Source of the DNA: Chloroflexota bacterium
GTDB lineage: Bacteria; Chloroflexota; Anaerolineae; Anaerolineales; Anaerolineaceae
Reading direction: 5' to 3'
Assembly: GCA_021825925.1 (NCBI GenBank)
Contig: JAKAFP010000001.1
Span: forward strand, 62,001-126,000
DNA: 64,000 nt
Below the pieces are notes generated by a model that was given only the letters and a program-made list of their open reading frames with translations, was not told where the DNA came from and made no database searches. The first letter of the stretch is position 1. Each line of letters starts with the position of its first letter. This document shows, one piece after another, positions 34,512 to 59,297 of the stretch. The position numbers and the translations under genes are program-made.

Positions 34512-34542
34512 GTCGTAATGACATGACCTGAGGGCTAAAAAG

Positions 34543-34583
34543 TGGACCCGGCAGGAGTCGAACCTGCGATCAAGCGGTTTATA
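34543..34583 (-). other. 3-prime half of a tRNA gene, putative attL of the prophage
   Basis: Read on the minus strand, the sequence gives an anticodon-stem 3-prime arm (CCGCT), variable loop, T-arm GCAGG-TTCGACT-CCTGC, acceptor strand CGGGTCC and discriminator A. CCA is not encoded. The matching 5-prime half (GGACCCG...) is not found to the right, where phage-like sequence with an integrase begins. This is what integration into a tRNA leaves at one end; the complete tRNA should lie at the far end, outside the window. The anticodon cannot be read safely. Confidence 0.7.
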
Positions 34584-35220: not shown

Positions 35221-36294
35221 ATGATCAACCGAGAAAATTACCTGGATGTTAAGAAATATATGGCTTACTTGAAAGATGTCTGTCAGAATGACGACCGCAC
35301 AATTGCTACTCTTCGACCAAGATTAAAGCATTTGATGGAATGGGCAGATGGAACAAGATTTAGTTCAGCGCAGAAAGTAAAGCCCACTTTCCCGGTATAT
35401 TTAGCCGGATTAAAGGATGATGATGACCAGCCTTCGATTGGCACTGCACATTTCGCGTCATGCTGCAAAACAGCCCGGGCATTTTTCAAATGGGCTCGAG
35501 ATGAATACCCCAGGACTTATAAGGATGTCGATTTGAATTGGATCGTTTCGATCAAGCCGCCAAAATCTCGCAGCGAGCAATCAGAAGTGAAAACCAGGGA
35601 ATATTACAAGGTTGAAGAGGTAATTCAGTTGGTCACCTGTGAGGTGGATTCGATTATGCTCAGGAGGATGCAGGCAGCAGTGGCTATGCTTTTTCTCTCT
35701 GGGATGAGGATTGGAGCGTTTGTTTCTCTTCCAATAAAGTGTGTGGATCTCGTAAATATGCAGGTTTCACAATTACCGGCCATGGGAGTGAACACAAAGA
35801 ATCATAAAGCCGCGGTAACCACGTTGTTGAATATTCCGGAGCTGGTTGAGGTGGTCAAGAGATGGGATGATTTCTTGAGGTCGCGTGTGCCAGATCATAT
35901 ATTGTGGTATGTGCCTTTCACCCATGATCTTCAACCGGCCAGTGTGAACCCAACCAAAGAGCGGATTGAAACTAGGCAGGATAATTTTCGAGACGATCTA
36001 AAGCAGCTTTGCGAGATTGCCGGCGTGATTTATAAATCTGCTCACAAGTTTAGGCACGGTCACACGGTTTGGGCGTTGAAGCGGGCTAAGGACATGGAAC
36101 AACTGAAAGCTATCTCTCAAAATTTGATGCATGCGAATATTGGGATCACTGATGGGATTTATGGAAACCTTGAGCGTAATGATGTGCATCAGACTATTTC
36201 TAGCCTGGTTAATGTGAAATTGGAAAAACAATCTGATCAGGAACTTCTCAACCAGGTGATTTCACTGCTGCGGTCACAAGTACACCCTGTATAA
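35221..36294 (+). CDS. Tyrosine recombinase (prophage integrase)
   Basis: A 357-residue site-specific recombinase. The N-terminal SAM-like DNA-binding domain spans ~10-110. The catalytic domain has R163 (LFLSGMRIGAF), a beta-hairpin Lys near K194/K196, H275-x-x-R278 (AHKFRHGH), H304 (LMHANIGIT) and nucleophile Y314 (DGIYG). Its position beside the tRNA half fits integration at that site. Confidence 0.9.
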   Translation: MINRENYLDVKKYMAYLKDVCQNDDRTIATLRPRLKHLMEWADGTRFSSAQKVKPTFPVYLAGLKDDDDQPSIGTAHFASCCKTARAFFKWARDEYPRTYKDVDLNWIVSIKPPKSRSEQSEVKTREYYKVEEVIQLVTCEVDSIMLRRMQAAVAMLFLSGMRIGAFVSLPIKCVDLVNMQVSQLPAMGVNTKNHKAAVTTLLNIPELVEVVKRWDDFLRSRVPDHILWYVPFTHDLQPASVNPTKERIETRQDNFRDDLKQLCEIAGVIYKSAHKFRHGHTVWALKRAKDMEQLKAISQNLMHANIGITDGIYGNLERNDVHQTISSLVNVKLEKQSDQELLNQVISLLRSQVHPV

Positions 36295-39221: not shown

Positions 39222-40391
39222 TTACCCTTCACATCCAACACCGTCGTGGTTACCATCAAAATTGTGAGGATCTGGCGGCAATACTCTAAATCGCCTGAAA
39301 GGGATATCTTTGCAATCGAGATCTGGTGGGGCAGGTGCAATACAAACATCTGGATATGATGAGTCACAATTATTGTTGACTGGAGCAGGCGCGACAGTGG
39401 AGCTTCCTGCCCCTTCAACGATTCCAGATTTATTAGTATTCAAAGTTGGTGTTGGGGGTATATACGGTTTGGCTGTTTTTGTTGGAATCCATAGACCCAG
39501 CATATTGGCTTTAGCGGTTTGAAAAGTTTTTGCAAATTGATCATCGCAAGCCGTATCCGGTGCCCACGATCCGGAAGATGCATATCCCAATCGGACCATT
39601 TCATTATTCACAAATACATCATCGACAAACACATAGCGCAGCAACCGATCATACCGGTCAACTTCAGAGGTGTCATTCACGAGTGTAACTGTCTTTCCGT
39701 AGATCAGGCTGCGATTCAGTTCAGCGGCTTCAGAATATCCGGTTGACCCGTTTTCAGGAGAATCGACACCAATATACCTGACAGAGAATTGCTGGCCATC
39801 TAATTCGACTACTATTGTGTCACCATCTGTGATTTTAACCACGGTTGCAGATTGTCTTTCGCTCTCAGGGGGAACACATGAGACACCGACTGCTGCCGGC
39901 AGCGTTAGCGTTGGAGTTAGTTCTATCGCAGTCGTGGTTGTTGCATTGGAAGTGGGCTTTAGTGTGGGGATGACAGGGGTGCTGGTTAACAGCACAGTTA
40001 TCGTCGGAATAATTGCTTCAGTTTGTGTGGCAGCGATTTGTGCACCTGGTTGCCCTATTGCGTTTGTTACCCAGCAGCCACCAACCAAGAGAACCAAAAG
40101 GCTTGCAGTCACCCCAGCTTTTACCTTTTTCAACCCCCAATAATGTCCCCGGTCGCTGAGTCGATTCTCGATAAAGACCGAGAGTTTATGAATCAGGATC
40201 AACGCCATTTGAAACAACCACTTGCTAGCTTTCCAGAGGCCAATAAACAGCCATTTGTAGAGCCAGACGACCCAGCCGATGGTCACCCAATAGAGCGTGC
40301 GACCGCAGCCTTTGCCTGAACCTGAACCCGAGGTCAAGACAACCCCCGAGTTTTTTCCGGTGCGAACTCGATAGTATCCCCGAACTGGCAT
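39222..40391 (-). CDS. Membrane-anchored thermonuclease with Excalibur domain
   Basis: A 389-residue protein from ATG 40391. N-terminal hydrophobic segments (~33-60 and ~95-115) are followed by a Thr/Pro-rich linker. The staphylococcal-nuclease domain is SATVVKITDGDTIVVELDGQQFSVRYIGVDSPENGS...VDRYDRLLRYVFVDDVFVNNEMVRLGYA, with the active-site Arg, Glu and Arg (VRYIG, SPENG, DRLLRY). The C-terminal Excalibur calcium-binding motif is DPHNFDGNHDGVGCEG. It probably cuts DNA or RNA outside the membrane. The gene is bracketed by two parS-like palindromes. Confidence 0.85.
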   Translation of the reverse strand: MPVRGYYRVRTGKNSGVVLTSGSGSGKGCGRTLYWVTIGWVVWLYKWLFIGLWKASKWLFQMALILIHKLSVFIENRLSDRGHYWGLKKVKAGVTASLLVLLVGGCWVTNAIGQPGAQIAATQTEAIIPTITVLLTSTPVIPTLKPTSNATTTTAIELTPTLTLPAAVGVSCVPPESERQSATVVKITDGDTIVVELDGQQFSVRYIGVDSPENGSTGYSEAAELNRSLIYGKTVTLVNDTSEVDRYDRLLRYVFVDDVFVNNEMVRLGYASSGSWAPDTACDDQFAKTFQTAKANMLGLWIPTKTAKPYIPPTPTLNTNKSGIVEGAGSSTVAPAPVNNNCDSSYPDVCIAPAPPDLDCKDIPFRRFRVLPPDPHNFDGNHDGVGCEG

Positions 40392-40430
40392 GTATCTACC
40401 CCTTACTTTAATATGGTGTCTTACAGTTAA

Positions 40431-40450
40431 AATGTTTGCGCGCAAACATT
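40431..40450. repeat. 20-bp perfect palindrome, parS-like, copy 2
   Basis: Same sequence as copy 1. It starts 40 bp upstream of the nuclease ATG, in the promoter region, and lies between the nuclease and the lipoprotein gene. Confidence 0.85.
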
Positions 40451-41224: not shown

Positions 41225-41641
41225 TTATTGCTCGGTTGATGTGTACTTGCCTAAGTGCTTAGAAAACATTTGTTTGATCTTTTCTAAATCTTCTGGTGAT
41301 GCTTCTGTTTTACCTTTGTTTATTTCAGATGATCGAACCTCAGCTAAAAATGAACGGACGTCTTCAGCCATTTCAGGTGGAAGTTCTGAAAGTAAATCGT
41401 CTTCTGATGGGCGTGAAATACCAAGAATTTCATAAACTTCTGCGCCGAAGTGGGAAATCAAGGCAGATATATATTTTTGGCTCGTTGGTGTTTTTCCGCC
41501 CTTTTTTAACCATTGTGTCATTAGGCTTTGGGGCACCCCAAGTAATTCTGCAAACTTGGTTATTGATCTTTCTTGACCGATTGCGTCGCCACGCCAATCG
41601 ATATACTTTTGTGTTATCCAGTCTGAAAACTCCATAGCCAT
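41225..41641 (-). CDS. Phage repressor-like HTH protein
   Basis: About 138 residues from ATG 41641 (or 41635). The Cro/cI-type HTH is SITKFAELLGVPQSLMTQWLKKGGKTPTSQKYISAL at ~25-62, followed by an acidic helical tail. A TATAAT box ends 6 nt before ATG 41641, so the mRNA could be leaderless; ATG 41635 has GGAG at 7 nt. It is divergent from the early genes, the classic place of a lysogeny repressor. Confidence 0.65.
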   Translation of the reverse strand: MAMEFSDWITQKYIDWRGDAIGQERSITKFAELLGVPQSLMTQWLKKGGKTPTSQKYISALISHFGAEVYEILGISRPSEDDLLSELPPEMAEDVRSFLAEVRSSEINKGKTEASPEDLEKIKQMFSKHLGKYTSTEQ

Positions 41642-41644
41642 ACT

Positions 41645-41721
41645 CCAATTATACGAGTTTGGAACCAATTTTCGAGCAATTTTCCAAAAACTATTGACAA
41701 ACAATTTCTAAGTGCTATACT
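41645..41721. promoter_or_regulatory. Divergent promoters and candidate operator
   Basis: Rightward: TTGACA (41694-41699), 16-nt spacer, TATACT (41716-41721). Leftward: TATAAT read from 41653 to 41648. Between them an inverted repeat TTTGGAA / TTCCAAA (about 41658-41664 and 41682-41688) is a candidate repressor operator. Confidence 0.65.
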
Positions 41722-43889: not shown

Positions 43890-44312
43890 ATGTATCAAAA
43901 ACACATCATGATTGGCAGACTTGGAAAAAACCCTGAAATGCGTTACACCCCCGCAGGGCAGCCTGTTGCATCATTCCCTTTGGCTGCTGAAAGAGTGTAT
44001 TTGGATAAAGCCGGCAAGCAAGTGAAAGAGACGACCTGGTATTCGATCCGCGCATGGGGAAGTTTGGCAGAATCTTGCGACAAGCTGCTCACGAAAGGCC
44101 GGGCGGTAATGGTTGAGGGTCGGTTGAATATTGACCCAAAAACAGGCGGTCCAAAGATTTGGTTTGATGAAAGCCACAACCCCCACGCCAATTTTGAGAT
44201 CACTGCCAGTATCGTGAAGTTTCTTACACCGACCACAACCCAAACCGGTGATCCGGTCTACATTTCTTTGGATGAACCAGATGCTGGAGATGGCTATGGA
44301 AACCCGGGTTGA
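43890..44312 (+). CDS. ssb: Single-stranded DNA-binding protein
   Basis: A 140-residue OB-fold SSB. MIGRLGKNPEMRYTPAGQPVASFPLAAERV, then TTWYSIRAWGSLAESCDKLLTKGRAVMVEGRLN are the classic SSB strands, and TASIVKFLTP closes the fold. The tail is acidic (DEPDAGDGYGNPG) but lacks the usual DDDIPF tip. AGGAGAG precedes ATG 43890. It coats single strands during phage replication. Confidence 0.9.
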   Translation: MYQKHIMIGRLGKNPEMRYTPAGQPVASFPLAAERVYLDKAGKQVKETTWYSIRAWGSLAESCDKLLTKGRAVMVEGRLNIDPKTGGPKIWFDESHNPHANFEITASIVKFLTPTTTQTGDPVYISLDEPDAGDGYGNPG

Positions 44313-44592: not shown

Positions 44593-44668
44593 TCAAGATA
44601 TACCACCCAGGCTGTGCCTAAGCTTGGGTGAATTTTTATAAGGACTTTGGAAAACAGGAGATATCAGA

Positions 44669-45886
44669 ATGGAAGAAAGCCAATTTGCACAAGCTGGAGA
44701 AAAGCAGTACATCCCACTATTTTTGATCGATGCCAACCCATGGCAAACGAGTCATATTGATCAGACGCACGTTGAGGCACTTGCACACGACATCAAAGAA
44801 CACGGCATGATGCAATCGCCCACTGCCAGAGTGATCGATGGTCGTTATCAACTGGCATTCGGCCACCACCGTTTGGCAGGATATAGACTGCTCAGCAGCC
44901 TTGGGAATGAGTATTATGACAACTTCCCATTATATATTCATGATCTCAATGATGAACAAATGGCGATCGCTGCTTTTGGTGAGAATGAAAAGCGCAGAAC
45001 CCTGAACCCTGTCGACCGCGCCCGGGCTGTCAAAAAGATGCTTGATGACTTCGGATGGACTCAGGAACTGGTGGCTGAAAAGCTTCACATCGACCGCAGC
45101 GGGGTATCAAACATGCTGCGTATGCTTCGCCTTCCGCAGGACGTGCTTGAAACGGTTGCTGCCGGTGAATTGCCAGTGCGGTCGGCCATGGCTTTGATCC
45201 CCATCTTTGAGGTAACCACATCTGAGAGCGTCAAGCTGGAAGACCGGTTTGGAGAATCACTTGCTGACTTTTTGAATGGCGCCAAGAAGGGTGAGGTCAA
45301 CAGCGATGTGATCAGGGCGCGGGTTGAACTCTATATGAACTTTTTGCACCCTGAACAATTGAAGCTGCCAGAAATTGAGGATGCTGCCCCGGCAGAACCA
45401 CCGGCTATTCAAGAGGAATGGCCTGATCCAACATTCAACCCGATTACCGAAACACCTGAAAATGAATTTTCAGAACAAACAAATATTCCATCGGCTCACC
45501 AGGCTGAACTATCGGATTGGGATGGCATTCAACACGAAGAGGCAATGAATGGATCTTCTGAAGAAATACCTGCGATGGCGACTGTTCAGACTGAATCAAT
45601 TGATCAGGGATCTGGACCGGACGCTTCACACAATGAAGAACGAGAAATACAAACAGCTGAACCTCAACCGGTTGAAAACCATGCGCCGGCAGCACCTCCA
45701 GCGGCGTCGACAAAGGTTGATGCACCGGACCCGAATGAAATCTTATTTAACATAGCCTGGAAAACGCACGGGGTAATTGTCAGTTACAAAAAACCAGGCA
45801 TGGTCATGCCAAAAATTATCTATCGTGAAAACTTGCGTATTGATGATGTGCCGGCAGTCATGCGTGAACTGGGAATGGGTAAATGA
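44669..45886 (+). CDS. parB: ParB/Spo0J-family protein of a PRTRC-type system
   Basis: A 405-residue protein. The ParB/sulfiredoxin-like domain at ~14-115 has the nucleotide-binding motifs GHHRLAGYRLL (65-75) and GENEKRR (104-110). A ParB HTH follows at ~128-158 (GWTQELVAEKLHIDRSGVSNMLRMLRLP). Then come a Pro/Glu-rich disordered region (~225-350) and a short conserved C-terminal domain (ILFNIAWKTHGVIVSYKKPGM). ParB clamps load on palindromic parS using CTP; the four parS-like palindromes in this prophage are its likely targets (inference). It leads the cassette of proteins C, F, B, A and ThiF. No ParA gene is seen. Confidence 0.85.
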   Translation: MEESQFAQAGEKQYIPLFLIDANPWQTSHIDQTHVEALAHDIKEHGMMQSPTARVIDGRYQLAFGHHRLAGYRLLSSLGNEYYDNFPLYIHDLNDEQMAIAAFGENEKRRTLNPVDRARAVKKMLDDFGWTQELVAEKLHIDRSGVSNMLRMLRLPQDVLETVAAGELPVRSAMALIPIFEVTTSESVKLEDRFGESLADFLNGAKKGEVNSDVIRARVELYMNFLHPEQLKLPEIEDAAPAEPPAIQEEWPDPTFNPITETPENEFSEQTNIPSAHQAELSDWDGIQHEEAMNGSSEEIPAMATVQTESIDQGSGPDASHNEEREIQTAEPQPVENHAPAAPPAASTKVDAPDPNEILFNIAWKTHGVIVSYKKPGMVMPKIIYRENLRIDDVPAVMRELGMGK

Positions 45887-46125
45887 AAAGCCATAAGTTA
45901 CAAGGGGAGATGCCACTATTTAGGCTCTCCCTTGAAGAAAAGCGGGATGCAATCAATTCGGCTAGAGACCAGTTAAGCCTAAGCGATAAAACGCGAATCG
46001 ATATTCTGGCTAATGACATGGTCTCGATTATGAAAGCCAAGCATCCGGGGATGCAATTCACAAAAGATGGAGCACTTGAAGTGATTGCGATGCTTGGAAT
46101 ATTTTTCAACAGGAGAATGAAATGA
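45883..46125 (+). CDS. Hypothetical protein in the PRTRC cassette
   Basis: An 80-residue helical protein (LSLEEKRDAINSARDQLSLSDKTRIDILANDMVSIMKAKHPG...). It overlaps both the ParB and protein C genes by 4 nt, so it belongs to the cassette. It could correspond to a small helical PRTRC member, but I cannot show this. Confidence 0.6.
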   Translation: MKSHKLQGEMPLFRLSLEEKRDAINSARDQLSLSDKTRIDILANDMVSIMKAKHPGMQFTKDGALEVIAMLGIFFNRRMK

Positions 46126-46655
46126 ATTACAAAATTTCAATTGAAGGGCAAGAGATAGAAATGCCTGAGGAGATAGCGGGTGACGATGGCGCGTTGAAAA
46201 GCGCGCTGTCGCCTTACTTCCCGGGGGCTGCCAATGCCAAGTTCATGCGGTCAGAACCCAAAGACGGCGTGATCACGGTAACAGTGGTCAAACAGGCAGG
46301 AACAAAAGGGACCGAAGCTAAGATATTAGGTTTCGATGAGTATCCATATGGTAATGATGCTGAAATTACTAAAGCAATTTTGAATGCCACAACCCAACCC
46401 GGGCATGATGACCAAGTACTGCGCAAGCTGATCGATGCTCCTGAAGGAATAAACCCCGCCATGTCGTTGGATCAGAAGTTGTCGACATCGCCGGCAATGA
46501 GTCAATGCCCATTTGAAACCTTGCTCAAGCGGGATGCTGAAATCGGAAAAGCTCTTGAAGTTGGCGAAGTAGAAGTTTCGAACATGACCAAGACTTTCCG
46601 ATTACTTGTGGATACCAAACCTCAACCAGCCCCGATGTTACCCACAGGTTTCTAA
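46122..46655 (+). CDS. PRTRC protein C-like (prokaryotic ubiquitin-like) with C-terminal extension
   Basis: A 177-residue protein. Residues 1-63 read as a small beta-grasp domain: MNYKISIEGQEIEMP (hairpin), GALKSALSPYFPGAANAKF (helix), DGVITVTVVKQAGTKG (closing strand). The ALxPxFPxxxxA and AGTKG features match PRTRC protein C (Prok_Ub), which from memory is about 70 residues and ends near GTKG. Here 114 further residues follow. They may be a second domain, or be removed by the JAMM protease encoded downstream, as ubiquitin precursors are. The cassette is translationally coupled. Confidence 0.6.
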   Translation: MNYKISIEGQEIEMPEEIAGDDGALKSALSPYFPGAANAKFMRSEPKDGVITVTVVKQAGTKGTEAKILGFDEYPYGNDAEITKAILNATTQPGHDDQVLRKLIDAPEGINPAMSLDQKLSTSPAMSQCPFETLLKRDAEIGKALEVGEVEVSNMTKTFRLLVDTKPQPAPMLPTGF

Positions 46656-47597
46656 ATGGATTTACTCTTGGATAAAAGTTTTTCTTTGGTTGCCCATCAG
46701 CTGCGCTCAATGCGGGTGCAGCCGATTGGTGCTGTCATGGATAATCTGAATGCCAAACGCAGCCAAATAAAGATCATCACAACAGCCAGGAGAGCAGGAT
46801 TAGGTAAAGATCAACGGTTAAAAACGCTGGAATGTATTTTTAACGATGGAGCATATTGCGAAAAAGTGATTGAGATCTTGTCTGAGGAGCTTCCATTAAT
46901 GAACCTGGATATGGAAGATTGTTGGGATGATGAAGGGAATTATATTCTTGCAATCAACCCTGACAGCTATTCGACTTGGACATTTGACGATGCAAATGAT
47001 CGATTAAGCGACGTGGGCGATATGATGCCATGGTTTAGCCTCACTGCATTCTTGCTTCTGATGAATTGGGGCATCGATTCAGATTTACCTGAATTTTGGA
47101 AAAACGCCATAGCCCACTTTAATTGGCCGTTTGATGGGCCTATCTCACTTGAATACTCAATCCCCATTGATGAAAAATACCTTAAGCGATATTTGGCTAA
47201 ACGGGACCTGACACCGCTTTATAAAGCAATTCAACAGGCATGGTTCCCACCTGATAATGTTTTTTTGTACTGCAACATGGAAGACCCCGATTCTGTTTAT
47301 TACGAATTCACGGTGGATAACCTAAAACTATTGCGTCGGGATTGGAAGAAAGCAAAACCTTACCTTGAACAGTACGACATTGCTTCATTAATGGTTGAAG
47401 AAGACCCTGGCAAATTGAGAATCCTTGTTGATGGCCTCAGAGAGAGCCAGGTGAGTTCGCAAAAGAATTCAAGCAAGCTTGGTAAAAATGCCGGTCTTCC
47501 GATGGTTGCCAAGGATATCATACTCAGGAGTGATCCTGACCCACTTTATGAGACTGATGATCAAGACTTGGATGATGAGGACCAAAACGATGACTGA
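46656..47597 (+). CDS. PRTRC protein F-like protein
   Basis: A 313-residue acidic soluble protein without a recognised catalytic motif. It begins right after the protein C stop and overlaps protein B by 8 nt. Size and position between C and B fit PRTRC protein F, and LPEFWKNAIAHFNWP and the acidic tail (ETDDQDLDDEDQND) are notable. The assignment rests mainly on context. Confidence 0.45.
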   Translation: MDLLLDKSFSLVAHQLRSMRVQPIGAVMDNLNAKRSQIKIITTARRAGLGKDQRLKTLECIFNDGAYCEKVIEILSEELPLMNLDMEDCWDDEGNYILAINPDSYSTWTFDDANDRLSDVGDMMPWFSLTAFLLLMNWGIDSDLPEFWKNAIAHFNWPFDGPISLEYSIPIDEKYLKRYLAKRDLTPLYKAIQQAWFPPDNVFLYCNMEDPDSVYYEFTVDNLKLLRRDWKKAKPYLEQYDIASLMVEEDPGKLRILVDGLRESQVSSQKNSSKLGKNAGLPMVAKDIILRSDPDPLYETDDQDLDDEDQNDD

Positions 47598-48273
47598 TCT
47601 ATTCAGAAGTTCACATGTAACAGCAGCTCTTTATTTTACGGATCAGGGCCATTACCTATTCAAATATAAAGAAATGAAAGCCTGGCAAGACTCTCCTGCT
47701 GATAATCACACTATTTCCAAATCCATTAGAGAACCAGAAGTGGCGGCGGCATTTTCTCATATCGGGTCTGATTCGGGTTATTTGCAGGATGGCGTGATCA
47801 GGGTCGGGAATAATTCACAAGGCTCCTGGTTTGTTCTTGTAAACAAGCCGGCGAAATACACGATAGAGATTATAGGCAAAGGAAAAATGACCATCCCTGT
47901 TCCATTGCTTGTGCTTATTGGAGCTAAGGGATTATTCAATATTTATGCATTGGCCACCAAGGATTTCAGTCCGGATGCTGTTGCTTTCCATGCTCCGTTT
48001 CCAAATGTGAACTCTACTGGATGGATTTGCTGGGGGACTGGCAACAAACTGCCAAAAGTAGCTGCCAATAAAGCGAATGAGGTGATTGACTTGTTTCTCA
48101 AAAGCCCATTCAATTACGATCTAAAAAACGGCAAGAGTAAAAGCTGCTCTGACGATATCACTAAGAAATATCCATTGATCACTAATAAGGACCAATATCC
48201 CGTAAAAGACATGGTGTCTATGAACCGAAGTATCGGCCGGATTATTGATGAACATATCCAGGACAGGGGTTGA
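47590..48273 (+). CDS. PRTRC protein B-like, E2 ubiquitin-conjugating fold
   Basis: A 227-residue protein from ATG 47590 (GAGG upstream). The C-terminal half has VPLLVLIGAKGLFNIYALATKD and then HAPFPNVNSTGWICWGTG, where P138-N-V-x3-G-x-I-C147 copies the active-site signature of eukaryotic E2 enzymes (PNVxxxGxIC). C147 would be the thioester cysteine. PRTRC protein B is classed as Prok-E2_D. It should accept the ubiquitin-like protein from the ThiF E1 encoded downstream. The target is unknown. Confidence 0.7.
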   Translation: MTDLFRSSHVTAALYFTDQGHYLFKYKEMKAWQDSPADNHTISKSIREPEVAAAFSHIGSDSGYLQDGVIRVGNNSQGSWFVLVNKPAKYTIEIIGKGKMTIPVPLLVLIGAKGLFNIYALATKDFSPDAVAFHAPFPNVNSTGWICWGTGNKLPKVAANKANEVIDLFLKSPFNYDLKNGKSKSCSDDITKKYPLITNKDQYPVKDMVSMNRSIGRIIDEHIQDRG

Positions 48274-48274
48274 A

Positions 48275-48871
48275 ATGGACCTAAATATTACTGGTCACAA
48301 AGTTATCCATAAAGGTGATACTGAAGGTTCACTTAATGGACTTCTTTACAAGTATCTTTATGGAGCAAATGGGATTTTTCTTGCTGCTGAAAATGAAATC
48401 TTTAAAACTACCATTCCAATTTCTACAATTAAAAATCCTAATCAGTATATTAGAGGGCTGGAGTTGATCCAGCCAGTGATCAAACTTCCAAAGAGGGTAC
48501 CTTCAAGTCTACTGGCAAGTATGGTCTTCCATAGCCGGCTAGCTTGCCCTAATGAAATCTTGTTTTATCTCTCTTATGCACTTAATGAGTGGGTATTAAT
48601 AACTCCTGATCAAAAAACGGGTCAATCGTACGCTCAACCAATTAGCAATTCTCTTTATTTTCCAATTGAAGTTCACTCCCATAACACCATGCCGGCTATA
48701 TTCTCGAGTACTGATAATGCTGATGAAAACGGCTTAAGGATTTACGGTGTGCTCGGCAGGGTTGACCGACCGGTGGTTGACATCAAGTTGCGTATATCCA
48801 TTTATGGTCATTGGTCTGTCCTGCCTTATCAATTTGTATTTGAACCCACACCCGAGGTCAAGAATGGATGA
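48275..48871 (+). CDS. PRTRC protein A-like JAMM/MPN metalloprotease
   Basis: A 198-residue protein. A complete JAMM motif is present: E122, H124-S-H126, seven residues, S134, two residues, D137 (EVHSHNTMPAIFSSTDNADE). This binds zinc and cleaves isopeptide bonds in deubiquitinases; PRTRC protein A is a known member. It probably processes or removes the ubiquitin-like protein. It begins 1 nt after protein B and overlaps the ThiF gene by 8 nt. Confidence 0.75.
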   Translation: MDLNITGHKVIHKGDTEGSLNGLLYKYLYGANGIFLAAENEIFKTTIPISTIKNPNQYIRGLELIQPVIKLPKRVPSSLLASMVFHSRLACPNEILFYLSYALNEWVLITPDQKTGQSYAQPISNSLYFPIEVHSHNTMPAIFSSTDNADENGLRIYGVLGRVDRPVVDIKLRISIYGHWSVLPYQFVFEPTPEVKNG

Positions 48872-49679
48872 GTTAAATTTCGAACAACCTTTGGAATTGA
48901 TTCTGCCTGTAGAAAAACACATCACGTTAATGTTGGTGGGGTGTGGCGGAACTGGGAGCTGGCTGGCGCCGGCAGTGGCAAGAATCGGCAAGATATTGAT
49001 TGAAAGATTCAATCGTGAAGTCTCTATTTATTTCATTGACCCTGATGTTGTTGAGGAGAAGAATATTTATCGTCAAAACTTCTGTGCAGCAGAAATTGAA
49101 GCCAATAAAGCTGAAACATTAGCCCAGCGGCATGGATTGGCTTGGGGGATCGAGATCAACGCAATGTCGAGAAAGTATAAGGACGTTATCTACTCAATAA
49201 GGGATCTGAATCATGCAATTGTGATTGGCTGTGTGGATCGCACAAGCGCGCGAGTTGAGATTGCTGAGAGCATGCAACATCATGATATGGGTGCCTGGCT
49301 TGACTGCGGTAATTCTGAAAGTTACGGTCAGATTTTGTTGGGTGTGAAGTCTTCCGCAAAGGACCTATTCTCGATTCCAGGAAAATGCGGTGGATTGCCA
49401 CTGCCAAGTCATCAGCACCCTGAATTGGTAAAGGAACCTGAAATAAACAAATCGGTTGCTCAGCCATCTTCTACTCTCTCTTGTGCTGACATGGCAATGC
49501 AAGACAGCCAGGGTTTGGCAATCAATCAGTGCATGGCAGCCGAGGCAGCAGATTACCTGGTGCGGATGTTGATCACAAAAAACCTAAAGAAATTCGCCAC
49601 TTACATCGATCTGGAAAGCGGCACGACCAGGTCAAAATACATTACTGAGAAGGCGGTACAAGAATATGCAAAAGGTTGA
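48864..49679 (+). CDS. PRTRC ThiF family E1-like adenylyltransferase
   Basis: A 271-residue Rossmann-fold protein. The ATP loop is LVGCGGTGS (24-32); D59 in YFIDPDVVEEKNIYRQNF binds metal/ribose and R70 is the conserved arginine; VIGCVDRTSAR (D125) follows. C207 in STLSCADMAMQDSQGLAINQ is a candidate thioester cysteine, and C148 and C175 are others. It would adenylate the C-terminus of a ubiquitin-like protein and pass it to the E2-like protein B. ATG 48864 has GAGG upstream. Confidence 0.85.
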   Translation: MDELNFEQPLELILPVEKHITLMLVGCGGTGSWLAPAVARIGKILIERFNREVSIYFIDPDVVEEKNIYRQNFCAAEIEANKAETLAQRHGLAWGIEINAMSRKYKDVIYSIRDLNHAIVIGCVDRTSARVEIAESMQHHDMGAWLDCGNSESYGQILLGVKSSAKDLFSIPGKCGGLPLPSHQHPELVKEPEINKSVAQPSSTLSCADMAMQDSQGLAINQCMAAEAADYLVRMLITKNLKKFATYIDLESGTTRSKYITEKAVQEYAKG

Positions 49680-50601
49680 CTTTACCAGTAGCATGGTTCG
49701 AGAATTAAAGGGTGCTCCATTGAGCTGCCTGATCCTCATGGCAATGGCCGGCCAGACCGTAACCGCCCAATACCTTGAAAGGAATTCAGGTTATTCAGAC
49801 AAGATTATTGGTGCCGCACTCCTTTATCTCCAAGAGCAGGGCTACATTACACGAAATGACCGGTATGCATGGCGTATAGCCATAAACGTCGCTCAATTAC
49901 CTTTGATGACATTACCCAATGAAACCGAACCTGATATTGCACCTCAAGCGGTGGATTTTGACCAACAGGAACCTAACAGCGAAATAACTGACACGACCCG
50001 GAATAATTCCGAGTCGGAGAATCTCCGTGTCCTTACTAGAATTAGATCTTTAGATTTAACTAGTAAAGAATTATTAGATCTTCCACTACTAGATATTGAC
50101 GACCCGGAAAAACTCCGGGTCGCTGAAAATCTCGAGGCATGCGACCGGTTTGGGATTGGTGAACCTAAGCGGACTGCGATCAGCAAGCTGAAGCACGTTA
50201 CTTCGAGAATGATTTGTTTTCACTGTGAAACTGTAAAGCTTCAAGGGCAGAAATTAGGTGCTGCCATTTTTAGGATTGAGAAAGACTGGAAGGTTCGAGA
50301 GGATTGGATTGACCCAAAAGACAAGATAGATTATTCAGATAAATATTATCCAGAAAATGTTTGCGCGCAAACATTAAGCGCGGATGATCTCGAATTATGG
50401 CAGTCGACGCTTGAATCTGTACGTGCAGAATTCAAGAAAGTTGAATTTGAGACCTGGTTGAAATCAGCGAAATTGATCTCAGTGAATGGCGACGGCTGGA
50501 CCATCCAAGTTGGGAATAGTTTCGCAGCTGATTGGATCAGGGAACATGCGCTTGAGGCGCTCCAATCCGCGGCCGGAGTGAATATTAAGGTGGTGTATTG
50601 A
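49666..50601 (+). CDS. Phage replication protein: N-terminal winged helix, C-terminal DnaA_N-like domain
   Basis: A 311-residue protein. Residues ~10-70 form a winged helix (TVTAQYLERNSGYSDKIIGAALLYLQEQGYITRNDRYAW). A long linker follows, then ~235-311 reads LELWQSTLESVRAEFKKVEFETWLKSAKLISVNGDGWTIQVGNSFAADWI, the DnaA N-terminal domain that contacts helicase (DnaB/DnaC). It probably starts phage replication. The 20-bp palindrome at 50356-50375 is inside the linker just before the DnaA_N part (ENVCAQTLS). It overlaps the ThiF gene by 14 nt. Confidence 0.7.
   Translation: MQKVDFTSSMVRELKGAPLSCLILMAMAGQTVTAQYLERNSGYSDKIIGAALLYLQEQGYITRNDRYAWRIAINVAQLPLMTLPNETEPDIAPQAVDFDQQEPNSEITDTTRNNSESENLRVLTRIRSLDLTSKELLDLPLLDIDDPEKLRVAENLEACDRFGIGEPKRTAISKLKHVTSRMICFHCETVKLQGQKLGAAIFRIEKDWKVREDWIDPKDKIDYSDKYYPENVCAQTLSADDLELWQSTLESVRAEFKKVEFETWLKSAKLISVNGDGWTIQVGNSFAADWIREHALEALQSAAGVNIKVVY
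50356..50375. repeat. 20-bp perfect palindrome, parS-like, copy 3
   Basis: The same AATGTTTGCGCGCAAACATT, inside the replication gene at the codons for the interdomain linker, so insertion there would be tolerated. Confidence 0.85.
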
Positions 50602-53301: not shown

Positions 53302-53763
53302 ATGCCAGGTCCGCCACCAAAAAACCCATCACTTCGACAAAGAAGGAACAAATCTTCGAGTCGAGCTTTATTGCCGAGCAAACCAAAACGGCAATTGCGA
53401 AAGCCACAATTGCCAAAACTAGAAAAAGGCGAGAAGTGGCATCCGTATGCAGTGAAGTTTTGGGAAACAATTTGGGCCTCTCCAATGAGCTCCGAGTTTG
53501 TTCACGGGGACGAACCAGCACTTTTAAGATTACTTTTTCTAACCGACAGATATTGGAAGGGTGGCAGCTTGGAGGTTGCCAAAGAAATTCGGATGATGGA
53601 ACAGCAATTTGGATTAACCCCATTAAGCCGAAGACGATTGGAATGGACCGTTGCTCAAGCCGAGGATGCAAAAGATCGGCATGAAAAAAACCGGTCAAAA
53701 AATGCAAAAAATATCCTCGATATTGACCCGATTGAAGATCCACGTGGAGTGTTAGCAGAATGA
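53302..53763 (+). CDS. Phage terminase small subunit (P27-like)
   Basis: A 153-residue protein with a basic N-terminus, then WHPYAVKFWETIWASPMSSEFVHGDEPALLRLLFLTDRYW and LTPLSRRRLEWTV, the typical layout of P27-family small subunits. It overlaps the large subunit by 4 nt and would recognise the packaging start site. Confidence 0.8.
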   Translation: MPGPPPKNPSLRQRRNKSSSRALLPSKPKRQLRKPQLPKLEKGEKWHPYAVKFWETIWASPMSSEFVHGDEPALLRLLFLTDRYWKGGSLEVAKEIRMMEQQFGLTPLSRRRLEWTVAQAEDAKDRHEKNRSKNAKNILDIDPIEDPRGVLAE

Positions 53764-55379
53764 CAGTTCTAATGATTCCAAAAGACACCATTGCATACCC
53801 AAGCCTGGGTGCTCAAGTGTGTTCATGGATTGAAGAGAACCTGGTTCATGGACCTGGTGATTTGTTAGGACAGCCAATACGGTTTGATCAAGAAAAAAAA
53901 GCGTTAATTTTCAGGATGTATGAAATCTATCCACAAGGACATCCGACTGCTGGAAGGCGTCGTTTCAAACGTGTTGGGTTGAGTCTACGGAAAGGTACTG
54001 CCAAAACTGAATTTGCTGCGTTGATCGCTGCGGCTGAGCTGCACCCAGATGCTCCGGTTAGGTGCGATGGTTACGATGCATATGGCAAACCGGTGGGTTT
54101 TGGGGTGACAGATCCTTACATTCCTTTGGTTGCTTACACAGAGGAACAGAGTGATGAGCTTGCTTATTACGCGCTCAAAACGATTCTTGAATATAGCAAA
54201 ATTGCTGATGATTTCGATATTGGCATGGAAAGGATCATGCGAATTGGTGGTAATGGAAAAGCAGAAAGCCTTTCTTCTTCACCAGATTCACGAGATGGTG
54301 CAAGAACTACATTCCAAGTATGTGATGAAACCCACCGGTGGACAACTGCTCGGTTAAACCGAGCCCATAAAACCATGCTAGCAAATACTCCAAAAAGGAA
54401 AATCGCTGATCCATGGACTTTGGAAACTACAACCGCTCCTACTCCTGGAGAAGGATCAGTTGCAGAGAAAACCATGGAGTACGCGACTCAAGTACATGAG
54501 GGAAAAATCCAGGATAGCCAGCTATTTTTCTTCCACAGGTACGCATCTGATGTTCATGATTTGGAAACTGTGGAAGGAATTCGCGCTGCTGTAATCGAAG
54601 CAAGCGGTCCCGCAGCTGAGTGGAGTGATATTGACGCAATCTGTAATCAATTTCAAGACCCGACCGCTGATAGACCATATTTGCGCCGTGTTTGGCTCAA
54701 TCAACTTGTTCAAGGTATGGATAAGGCATTTGATTTTGCGAAATGGAAAGATCTGAAATCAGAGTTTGTTCCTACACCTGGAGACACCATAACTCTTGGG
54801 TTTGACGGCGCCCGGTGGCGCGACTCGGTGGCTCTTGTAGCAACTCATCTTGAAACCGGTTTTCAATGGCTGGCGGGATTGTGGGAAAAACCTTTCGGCC
54901 AGGAAGATGAGTGGGAAGCTCCTGAAGAGGAAATTAATAACATGGTCGATGCATTTTTCAAGCTTTATAACGTTTGGAGAATGTATTGTGATCCTCCCTA
55001 TTGGGAAACGCATGTAGCAACCTGGTCAGGAAAGTATGGGGAAAAGAAGGTAATCGCTTGGTATACCAACCGGTTGATTCCGATGTCTTATGCAATTCGG
55101 GCATTTAATACATCGCTTCTGGCAAAAGAAATATCACATTCTGGGAACGAAGATTATTCAAGACACATTGGTAATGCGGTTAAGAAATTCATCAGGATTG
55201 TTGACGAACAGGGAGCTCCTCTCTGGGTAATTTATAAAGAACGACCAGATTCTCCAAAAAAGATTGATGCAGCCATGGCTGGAATTTTGTCTTGGCAGGC
55301 AAGAAGTGACGCTCTAAAAGTTGGTGTGCCAACAGACGGAAAAAGTATTTACGAGTCACGAGGTATGGTGGTCGTATGA
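53760..55379 (+). CDS. Phage terminase large subunit
   Basis: A 539-residue terminase. Walker A is LSLRKGTAKTE (~74-84), Walker B ends TTFQVCDETHRW, and the nuclease domain starts TLGFDGARWRDSVALVATHL with further acidic residues (RMYCDPPYWE). This is the actinophage/HK97-like large terminase. It packages DNA through the portal two genes downstream. Confidence 0.85.
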   Translation: MTVLMIPKDTIAYPSLGAQVCSWIEENLVHGPGDLLGQPIRFDQEKKALIFRMYEIYPQGHPTAGRRRFKRVGLSLRKGTAKTEFAALIAAAELHPDAPVRCDGYDAYGKPVGFGVTDPYIPLVAYTEEQSDELAYYALKTILEYSKIADDFDIGMERIMRIGGNGKAESLSSSPDSRDGARTTFQVCDETHRWTTARLNRAHKTMLANTPKRKIADPWTLETTTAPTPGEGSVAEKTMEYATQVHEGKIQDSQLFFFHRYASDVHDLETVEGIRAAVIEASGPAAEWSDIDAICNQFQDPTADRPYLRRVWLNQLVQGMDKAFDFAKWKDLKSEFVPTPGDTITLGFDGARWRDSVALVATHLETGFQWLAGLWEKPFGQEDEWEAPEEEINNMVDAFFKLYNVWRMYCDPPYWETHVATWSGKYGEKKVIAWYTNRLIPMSYAIRAFNTSLLAKEISHSGNEDYSRHIGNAVKKFIRIVDEQGAPLWVIYKERPDSPKKIDAAMAGILSWQARSDALKVGVPTDGKSIYESRGMVVV

Positions 55380-58022: not shown

Positions 58023-59297
58023 ATGAACAAAGATCTAATGGCATTGCAGCAGGAACGGGCTGACCTTGTAGTGGAGGGTAAAAAAATATTTGACCTCGCA
58101 GCTAAAGAGTCACGCGAACTTACTGATGAAGAAAAGACGCGTGATGATGAGATCAACGCCCGGTTGGCAGCGATCAACGGTGATATTCAACGTCTCGAAG
58201 CCAAACGAGAACGGGAACGGTCAGTTCAAGCGATGCCTAGAATTGAAGGCATGCGAGACCGTGCTGAAGATGACCCCAAAAGGGGATTTGCAGACATTGC
58301 AGATTTCGCACTTGCGGTGAAAGGGATTTACACCCCTGGAGGTACTGTTGACGACCGTCTATTAATTGGTGCCGCTCCTACAGATTTTCATCAGGAAACG
58401 GGGTCGGCTGAAGGGCGCATGGTTCCCCCCGCATTCCGTCAGGAAGTGTGGGAAGTCGCCATGGAAGAGGATTCTTTACTTCCAGAGACCGATACCGAAC
58501 CCACCAGTCAGAATTCAGTGGAGTTTCTCAAGGATGAAACTACTCCTTGGGGATCTACTGGAATTCAGGCAAAATGGCGGTCTGAAGGTGGAAAGATGGA
58601 GCCAAGCAAGCTCGTTACCGAAGGCGAACAAATGCGTTTGCATGATCTCTATGCATTTGTAACTGCCACGGATGAAATTCTTACTGATGCTCCGCGTCTT
58701 GCCATTCGTCTCACCAAAAAATCTGGTGCTGCAATTCGGTGGAAAGTAAACAATGCCATTTCAAATGGATCAGGTGCTGGCCAACCTCTTGGATACTTGA
58801 AATCAAATGCTTTGGTGAGCGTTGCGAAAGAAACTTCTCAAACCGCTGACACCGTTGTGGCGGCCAATGTTGCAAAAATGTACGCCAGGATTATCAACCC
58901 ATTGAATTCGGCTTGGTATATCAACCAGGATGTTTTGCCTCAATTGATGGTAATGACTCTTGGCAATCAGCCAATTTGGACTCCTCCAAGCACTGGTTTT
59001 ACGAATGCACCTGGCGGGCTCTTGTTTGGGCGGCCAGTGCGTTTCAACGAGAGCTGCGGGACCGTTGGCGATAAAGGTGATATCCAGCTTGTAAACCTCA
59101 AGAATGGTTATTACACAATTACCAGCGACGCGGGAATTCAGTTCGCCAGCTCTATGCACCTGTTCTTCGATTACGGATTGCAGGCCTTCCGCTGGACATT
59201 CCGACTCAATGGGCAGCCTTACCTTTCAAAACCGATTTCTCCAAAAAATGGCTCTAACACCAGAAGTCATTTTGTAACTTTGGATGAAAGATCTTAA
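58023..59297 (+). CDS. Major capsid protein (HK97 gp5 fold)
   Basis: A 424-residue protein. An N-terminal coiled-coil delta/scaffold region (~1-80, LTDEEKTRDDEINARLAAINGDIQRLEAKRE) is followed by the HK97 capsid domain: SAEGRMVPPAFRQEVWE, DLYAFVTATDEILTDAPRLA, ISNGSGAGQPLGYL and DIQLVNLKNGYYTITSD. The delta domain would be cut off by the S49 protease upstream. Confidence 0.9.
   Translation: MNKDLMALQQERADLVVEGKKIFDLAAKESRELTDEEKTRDDEINARLAAINGDIQRLEAKRERERSVQAMPRIEGMRDRAEDDPKRGFADIADFALAVKGIYTPGGTVDDRLLIGAAPTDFHQETGSAEGRMVPPAFRQEVWEVAMEEDSLLPETDTEPTSQNSVEFLKDETTPWGSTGIQAKWRSEGGKMEPSKLVTEGEQMRLHDLYAFVTATDEILTDAPRLAIRLTKKSGAAIRWKVNNAISNGSGAGQPLGYLKSNALVSVAKETSQTADTVVAANVAKMYARIINPLNSAWYINQDVLPQLMVMTLGNQPIWTPPSTGFTNAPGGLLFGRPVRFNESCGTVGDKGDIQLVNLKNGYYTITSDAGIQFASSMHLFFDYGLQAFRWTFRLNGQPYLSKPISPKNGSNTRSHFVTLDERS

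Follow-up and report, generated by a model that had tools for sequence, protein, structure and literature searches.

Why should a prophage carry a ubiquitin-like protein (Ubl) together with E1-like, E2-like and protease partners, directly behind a gene for a ParB protein? The question is raised by a cassette at positions 44669-49679 of the window, that is, the whole stretch of 64,000 nucleotides analysed here from a Chloroflexota bacterium of the Anaerolineaceae (assembly GCA_021825925.1, contig JAKAFP010000001.1, positions 62,001 to 126,000). The contig is 634 kb long and is part of a 3.4-Mb genome. We show from the gene sequences that predicted members of four enzyme and tag classes with conserved catalytic residues are encoded by overlapping genes between a single-strand DNA-binding protein (SSB) and the terminase. 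We propose that its products form a ubiquitin-like conjugation pathway which belongs to the phage and controls replication or segregation of the element, and give this proposal as a whole slightly less than an even chance. Conjugation chemistry by the cassette is likely, and we hold that part with good confidence; a role in replication or partition of the element is the best single guess from gene placement and is more tentative. The new result of the analysis is the pattern of tail and extension in the Ubl gene of related viruses. The build of this protein, C, in related loci fits a putative precursor that the protease A would cut, with ThiF (C207) then activating the tag and the E2-like protein B (C147) receiving it.

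The genes run on the forward strand in the order ParB (44669-45886), an open reading frame (ORF) of 80 amino acids (45883-46125), C (46122-46655), an ORF in the F slot (46656-47597), B (47590-48273), A (48275-48871) and ThiF (48864-49679). From ParB through a 70-aa ORF every gene is open and overlaps or directly adjoins the next, with gaps of -14 to +1, and the tightly overlapping ParB/C/B/A/ThiF cassette of the original prediction was thereby confirmed. Its ParB call held as well, with a helix-turn-helix match (PF17762, E 8e-16) and a second one to PF02195 (7e-6), and so did those of an E2-like B with a PNVxxxGxIC signature and C147, a JAMM protease with an intact E/HxH/S/D set and a ThiF-type E1. 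The label "F-like" for the 313-aa F-slot protein was a matter of position only; its best family match was DUF5760 at E 0.029, under the cut-off, and its profile gave no match to the F protein of plasmid pMOL28, so its identity as F by sequence was rejected.

B matched Prok-E2_D (PF14460, E 1.3e-16) with 61.2 bits against a cut-off of 25, and carries Cys147 in PNVNSTGWIC. Across the aligned loci, this position held 199 cysteines, one methionine and one gap. In hhalign the motif was aligned with PNINSNGSIC of human UBE2D3, cysteine on cysteine, over 31 columns (P 7e-5, probability 63%). The AlphaFold model of B had a predicted local distance difference test score (pLDDT) of 89.5, and among its top 50 Foldseek matches the sole recognised E1-E2 chains were those of Cap2 (rank 8, E 1.4; rank 48, E 3.2). 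A was barely over the cut-off of Prok-JAB (PF14464; 25.3 bits, cut-off 25), with the predicted metal-site set E94, H134, H136, S144 and D147 all present. Among 151 aligned A proteins, both histidines were found in 151, Glu94 in 149, and Ser144 and Asp147 in 150 each. ThiF matched PF00899 (1.1e-12) and has the ATP-binding GxGGxG, the Arg, the Asp and the conserved Cys expected of an E1/ThiF protein. We took its start as the ATG at 48864, one codon before the start used in the alignments (48867), in which C207 of the protein is numbered C206. The position of C207, the candidate catalytic residue, held 208 cysteines, one alanine and four gaps. C123 (C122 in alignment numbering) was set aside as the catalytic residue, as this position held 174 cysteines, 36 alanines and one serine. 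Sequence searches of the PDB with profiles of B, C and A returned nothing relevant (best E 0.088).

C had no match in Pfam, NCBIfam or PHROG at E <= 1. It could be aligned with the annotated C proteins of PRTRC (ParB-related, ThiF-related cassette) sets on plasmids of Deinococcus and Cupriavidus. Its first 63 residues (46122-46310) form a predicted beta-grasp-like domain ending in G60-T-K-G63; residues 64-177 (46311-46655) are a flexible linker and a helical extension ending in GF. In the AlphaFold model, residues 1-60 took the order strand-strand-helices-strand-strand (block pLDDT 86-94), residues 61-100 had a block pLDDT of 53-64 and residues 111-170 one of 90-97. The tail opens a low-confidence linker that separates two well-modelled domains. 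Ubiquitin-like chains recurred in the top 50 Foldseek matches of C, each weaker than E 0.001. C also matched the PADLOC model C3a152, named "Type III-C specific", at E 6e-10, and relatives of C (window 46122-46655) may be neighbours of CRISPR loci of type III-C.

Across eight diverse units of C from seven proteins, no column but G60 and G63 of the tail was invariant; in an alignment of 61 sequences, K62 and G63 were invariant and G60 reached at least 90%. For tails and extensions we used 173 of 213 loci, requiring C, B and a ThiF of at least 200 aa, and found a GxKG tail in 162 of the 173 C proteins. Where A was present, C was extended beyond the tail by at least 3 aa in 104 of 129 loci, and some of the others had a stop codon directly after the tail. 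None of the 44 loci in which A was undetected had residues past the tail; 42 ended in GxKG, L087 in KDKG and L095 in ATKG. A second search of these 44 loci, using a lax profile, gave a best E of 4.7, and in a motif scan one ORF in L148 fitted the loose motif; some of the loci have short flanks, the shortest being those of L248 (2.8 kb upstream of ThiF, 0.3 kb downstream). In gp199 of Bacillus phage KLEB27-3 (L009:709-1416), four Ubl units stand in tandem, each ending in AGVKG, and Vibrio phage D69 (L010:2385-3176) has three ending in TGTKG; both loci have A, and both arrangements resemble polyubiquitin precursors. The simplest account of these tail data is a putative Ubl precursor that A cuts after GxKG. 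Processing of C after GTKG is likely wherever A is present. The extension may have a role of its own.

Seven further cassettes in which A was undetected (L236, L237, L238, L242, L243, L248 and L250), from Chloroflexota-related metagenome-assembled genomes (MAGs) and one Bacteroidetes MAG, have a Ubl whose last residues are PGRKG or AGRKG. A Deinococcus plasmid (L006:4177-9422) has two B/ThiF sets side by side, A not detected, and a C ending in GTKG. The A-less viral locus L155 (12765-14840) has an amidoligase gene (phrog_2443) downstream of the cassette, and its cluster was found in 7 loci.

On the proposed pathway, A would cleave the precursor of C behind its GTKG tail, ThiF would adenylate the freed glycine and take C as a thioester on C207, and B would receive it on C147. 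C would then be joined to a lysine, or another nucleophile, of a target, and A could also remove it. The likeliest targets would be ParB, the protein with a DnaA N-terminal domain encoded after ThiF, the sliding clamp where present, or borrowed host replication proteins, and tagging would govern how the element replicates or segregates. The original prediction named DNA maintenance, replication or host takeover as possible uses of protein tagging by the prophage; the analysis supports an E1/E2/Ubl/JAMM set that looks complete, and replication or maintenance is the best guess from placement.

This guess comes from the neighbours. ParB, the cassette and a protein with a winged-helix-like part and a DnaA_N domain (49666-50601, forward strand; PF11638, E 2.3e-12) lie in one overlapping run, the last overlapping ThiF by 14 bases, with SSB just upstream; a MarR_2 match of the DnaA_N-domain protein was under the cut-off (E 0.17). 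Among the 213 loci, a ParB on the same strand was found within 7 kb of the cassette in 56, an E-like protein near it in 89, SSB in 16 (11 within 7 kb) and a DnaA_N-type protein in 14. A beta clamp was found in 22 loci (19 within 7 kb), in all 22 on the strand of the cassette, and one is a fragment of 56 aa. The neighbour profiles were home-made, with one annotated member each in the clusters that seeded ParB, DnaB and the clamp, and neighbour clusters were annotated through representatives only; the E-like profile was built on a cluster of which one member was scanned, with a match to PF19556. No clamp was found in 82 viral control loci, compared to 22 of 213 cassette loci (Fisher p 8e-4, uncorrected for relatedness and lineage). 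On the Leptolyngbya plasmid pLBX (L005:6772-7722), a gene for the DNA polymerase III delta subunit directly follows ThiF.

Several results weigh against the proposal. Foldseek searches of the PDB with the models of B and of C gave no match at E <= 0.001; because of this, the E2 assignment of B is based on the Pfam family and the motif. The profile of C did not match ubiquitin. Taken together, the two models neither confirm nor contradict the UBC and beta-grasp folds by which the original prediction was to be judged. The link between A and the extension involves a minimum of 5 changes of A on the tree; three independent pairs, none contrary, gave a median p of 0.25, and the pattern is non-significant after correction for relatedness; overall, A changed at least 5 times and the extension 13 times. 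A clamp was undetected in 191 of the 213 loci and a DnaA_N protein in 199. With viral loci only, the clamp comparison fell to 7 of 134, with 0 of 82 in the control (p 0.046, again uncorrected for relatedness and lineage), and the control was weak, consisting of 80 loci anchored on terminase and 2 on DnaB, the whole yield of the DnaB scan, with many contigs shorter than 10 kb, four loci that carry the cassette, and no matching by lineage or flank length. Of eight loci with a close terminase (at least 49%) and at least 8.7 kb upstream, five (L281, L284, L302, L308 and L309) do not have the cassette and three (L279, L307 and L311) do, so phages of that type can dispense with it. L284 has ParB without the cassette; with the split of three to five, this means that the module is swappable and ParB separable from it.

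The cassette is best described as PRTRC-like, a divergent viral variant by its sequence, and not as strict PRTRC. ThiF scored 141 bits with TIGR03736 (PRTRC_ThiF; cut-off 144.75), B 52.7 with TIGR03737 (131.45), A 48.1 with TIGR03735 (PRTRC_A; 101.8) and ParB 39.9 with TIGR03734 (PRTRC_parB; 278.6), and no cassette protein matched the PRTRC C, E or F models over their cut-offs. With A, B, ThiF and ParB all under the curated cut-offs, strict membership was rejected. The order ParB-E-C-F-B-A-ThiF is that of the PRTRC plasmid pMOL28, with unrelated proteins in the E and F slots; no PRTRC E was found in the cassette, and the 80-aa ORF in its slot belongs to no family we could find (best hits no better than E 0.05, none to PF19556). 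The PRTRC identity named in the original prediction thus stood for gene order and for the likeness of four proteins to the models, and not for the cut-offs or for C, E and F. In the wider profile search, Prok-E2_D and Prok-JAB were over their cut-offs and ThiF matched PF00899, and C was left without a family. In contrast to the PRTRC plasmids, the cassette here lies in a prophage, with the DnaA_N-domain gene overlapping the end of ThiF, and its C has an extension of 114 aa, compared to 5 aa in pMOL28.

Similar systems have been described before. Iyer, Burroughs and Aravind predicted in 2006 an operon type 6d, whose Ubl has a C-terminal glycine (PMC1779556). Like our cassette, as far as the consulted part of that paper describes it, the type combines a small ubiquitin-like protein, a helical protein, an E2-like protein with the Cys, a JAB protein with an N-terminal domain and an E1; however, the section on the type mentions neither ParB nor phages, and the ubiquitin-like protein is small and standalone. 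We infer that type 6d equals PRTRC. The Bil system likewise has a Ubl, an E1, an E2 and a JAB/JAMM protein in one set, and BilC is described as exposing BilA's reactive glycine, in the portion of PMC11354881 available to us. The same portion gives BilA two ubiquitin-like domains, whereas C has one; the E2 of Bil is listed as PF14459, in a passage of PMC10952713 where ParB goes unmentioned, whereas B matches PF14460. With one Ubl domain and separate E1 and E2 proteins, the cassette is neither Bil, marked by a two-domain Ubl, nor the type II cyclic oligonucleotide-based antiphage signalling system (CBASS), marked by a fused E1-E2 with a CD-NTase. The pLBX cassette is closer, with an aligning extension of C, an F-slot gene, B, A and ThiF, but lies on a plasmid and is followed by the polymerase gene mentioned above. 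KLEB27-3 and D69 have B, A, ThiF and C in phages, but differ in their tandem C of four and three units, and ParB is not annotated in the stretch examined. The part of the literature available to us treats PRTRC as an annotation of plasmids or conjugative elements (e.g. PMC3826726), and within what could be seen of the open-licence PubMed Central literature, we found no functional study of PRTRC-type cassettes nor their treatment as phage modules.

PRTRC-like cassettes are not rare in viruses, and the view that the set is exceptional for a phage was not supported. ThiF relatives were found in 10 of 50,697 phage records, with one for B by tblastn, and in 404 of 72,556 plasmid records, among which Pseudomonas was the largest group (138). 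Among the plasmid matches listed, the best was Stanieria at 44%, followed by Leptolyngbya at 40%, and the proteobacterial ones were about 31% or less. Scans of IMG/VR confirmed 161 ThiF relatives with one query and 68 with another; 80 of the 161 were kept for locus analysis, so the viral counts are lower bounds. After 14 duplicates and then 13 more loci were dropped, 122 of 134 distinct IMG/VR loci held ThiF, B and C, and 88 of the 122 also held A. Phage isolates carry the set too, and GenBank labels single phage genes as PRTRC, those of ME3 and KLEB27-3 among them. Salmonella phage Arash has B, A and ThiF, with C not found in the stretch examined; Acinetobacter phage ME3 has ThiF, pieces of A and weak matches to C and B, and Rctr197k has ThiF only. 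The annotation of Arash (L359:1519-4539) calls the products of the E2-like and the E1-like gene structural proteins, and we found no paper on the ground for this. In a FastTree of 173 ThiFs, viral and plasmid or chromosomal loci were intermixed, with at least 22 changes; 72 of the 170 inner branches were weak and long branches meet. In the host lineage, Prok-E2_D occurred in 32 of 400 genomes of a phylum sample (28 over the family cut-off), in 10 of the family's 147 genomes and in 5 of the 16 from the genus, the window's own genome counted. This spread is sporadic, as for a mobile gene set.

Could the cassette instead be defence carried by the prophage, tagging proteins of superinfecting phages like Bil, Bub or CBASS Cap2/Cap3 and protecting the lysogen? 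We regard this as improbable. Known bacterial systems with these enzyme classes have been placed in immunity, at least in the parts consulted of PMC10449767, PMC11354881, PMC13373217 and PMC10952713, Bub being grouped with immune pathways (PMC13373217, consulted in part), and the cassette is patchy among related phages and within the host genus. However, apart from the type III-C accessory model that C matched, PADLOC gave only a similarity of ThiF to E1-E2 models, and the E2 class of ISG15-like systems and CBASS, as given in the accessible portion of PMC10952713, is PF14459, from which B differs. The cassette lies between SSB and terminase, about 9 kb inward from the integrase and away from the attachment sites, and similar sets are found in the large phages KLEB27-3, D69 and Arash. 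The placement of the genes speaks more for a part in replication or partition than for cargo defence.

It is equally doubtful, to our mind, that the pathway serves counter-defence or takeover, with C put on host nucleases, on SMC-type complexes that clear plasmids or on RNA polymerase, and the DNA of the element shielded in this way. The set is common to plasmids, an integrative conjugative element (PMC3826726, in the part available) and phages, which face the same host barriers, and its position in the prophage is upstream, that is, early. The neighbours, by contrast, namely ParB, the clamp and the initiator-like genes, point to DNA replication.

Two other readings concern the tag itself. We consider it rather unlikely that the extension of C is the working domain of an uncut fusion in which the tail is only an interface. 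The extension does align with that of the Leptolyngbya plasmid protein and is modelled as high-confidence helices, and 31 of 57 C proteins that are not of the RRAV type and have at least 60 aa after the domain end in GF, compared to 0 of 41 of the RRAV type. But the stop codon right after the tail, seen in each of the 44 loci where A was undetected and in some that have A, and the tandem copies joined at this same tail speak against a fusion that stays whole. Least probable of all is that C is a sulphur carrier or non-covalent regulator and that ThiF makes a thiocarboxylate, as happens when thiamine or molybdopterin is synthesised. ThiF did match the ThiF and MoeB models, under their cut-offs, but an E2-like protein with the conserved Cys accompanies ThiF and C in the 122 IMG/VR loci and no sulphur-metabolism gene was named in the annotated neighbourhoods examined.

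The element that carries the cassette is a prophage of about 38.4 kb (38,424 bases scanned), integrated in tRNA-Met. The integration in a tRNA gene claimed in the original prediction was borne out, and its probable Chloroflexota host was supported. ARAGORN found zero tRNAs inside the window; the tRNA-Met lies 8.9 kb past its right edge, and a 19-bp left attachment repeat at 34537-34555 on the forward strand, traced by shared k-mers, copies the 3' end of this tRNA gene, the second copy of the repeat (window-equivalent 72936-72954, outside the window). The nearest named relative (ThiF 75%) is in an Anaerolineaceae MAG. The integrase (35221-36294, forward; phrog_1, E 5e-14) adjoins the repeat. 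A repressor-like regulator follows on the reverse strand (41225-41704; phrog_8 transcriptional regulator, E 4e-7), and beside it the best promoter-like site of the region, TTGACA-16-TATACT (41694-41721, forward; 11 of 12 positions matched, by consensus only), points into the early operon; the promoter scan was near chance, with 31 sites compared to 25.5 expected. On the forward strand, SSB (43890-44312; PF00436, E 1.7e-22) is followed by a weak terminator-like hairpin immediately 5' of ParB (44604-44630), in a scan that was also near chance (12 found, 14.5 expected), and beyond the cassette lie the terminase large subunit (53760-55379; phrog_9, E 1e-71) and the major head protein (58023-59297; phrog_10, E 5e-43). 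Portal, protease and tape measure were assigned by eye. A P-loop motif scan of the prophage found no ParA-like protein; its one match was at the terminase end, and a ParABS system of plasmid type was set aside. L042, from a 38.6-kb IMG/VR contig, is nearly collinear with the prophage over its available part. On the lysogeny side, the protein encoded at 39222-40445 looks secreted; a thermonuclease-like stretch and an excalibur-like end were recognised in it by eye.

The cassettes are common in viral contigs, their catalytic residues are conserved and a candidate cleavage site is defined, and an unknown cassette thus becomes a biochemical question, which the phage isolates carrying the set make testable. 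More speculatively, phages and plasmids may share a eukaryote-like tagging of their own replication machinery (ParB, initiator and clamp), with extended or tandem precursors that would be cut by a JAMM protease at a GxKG tail, in parallel to the modification of PCNA. If replication proteins are indeed tagged in this way, bacterial ubiquitin-like signalling would extend beyond immunity.

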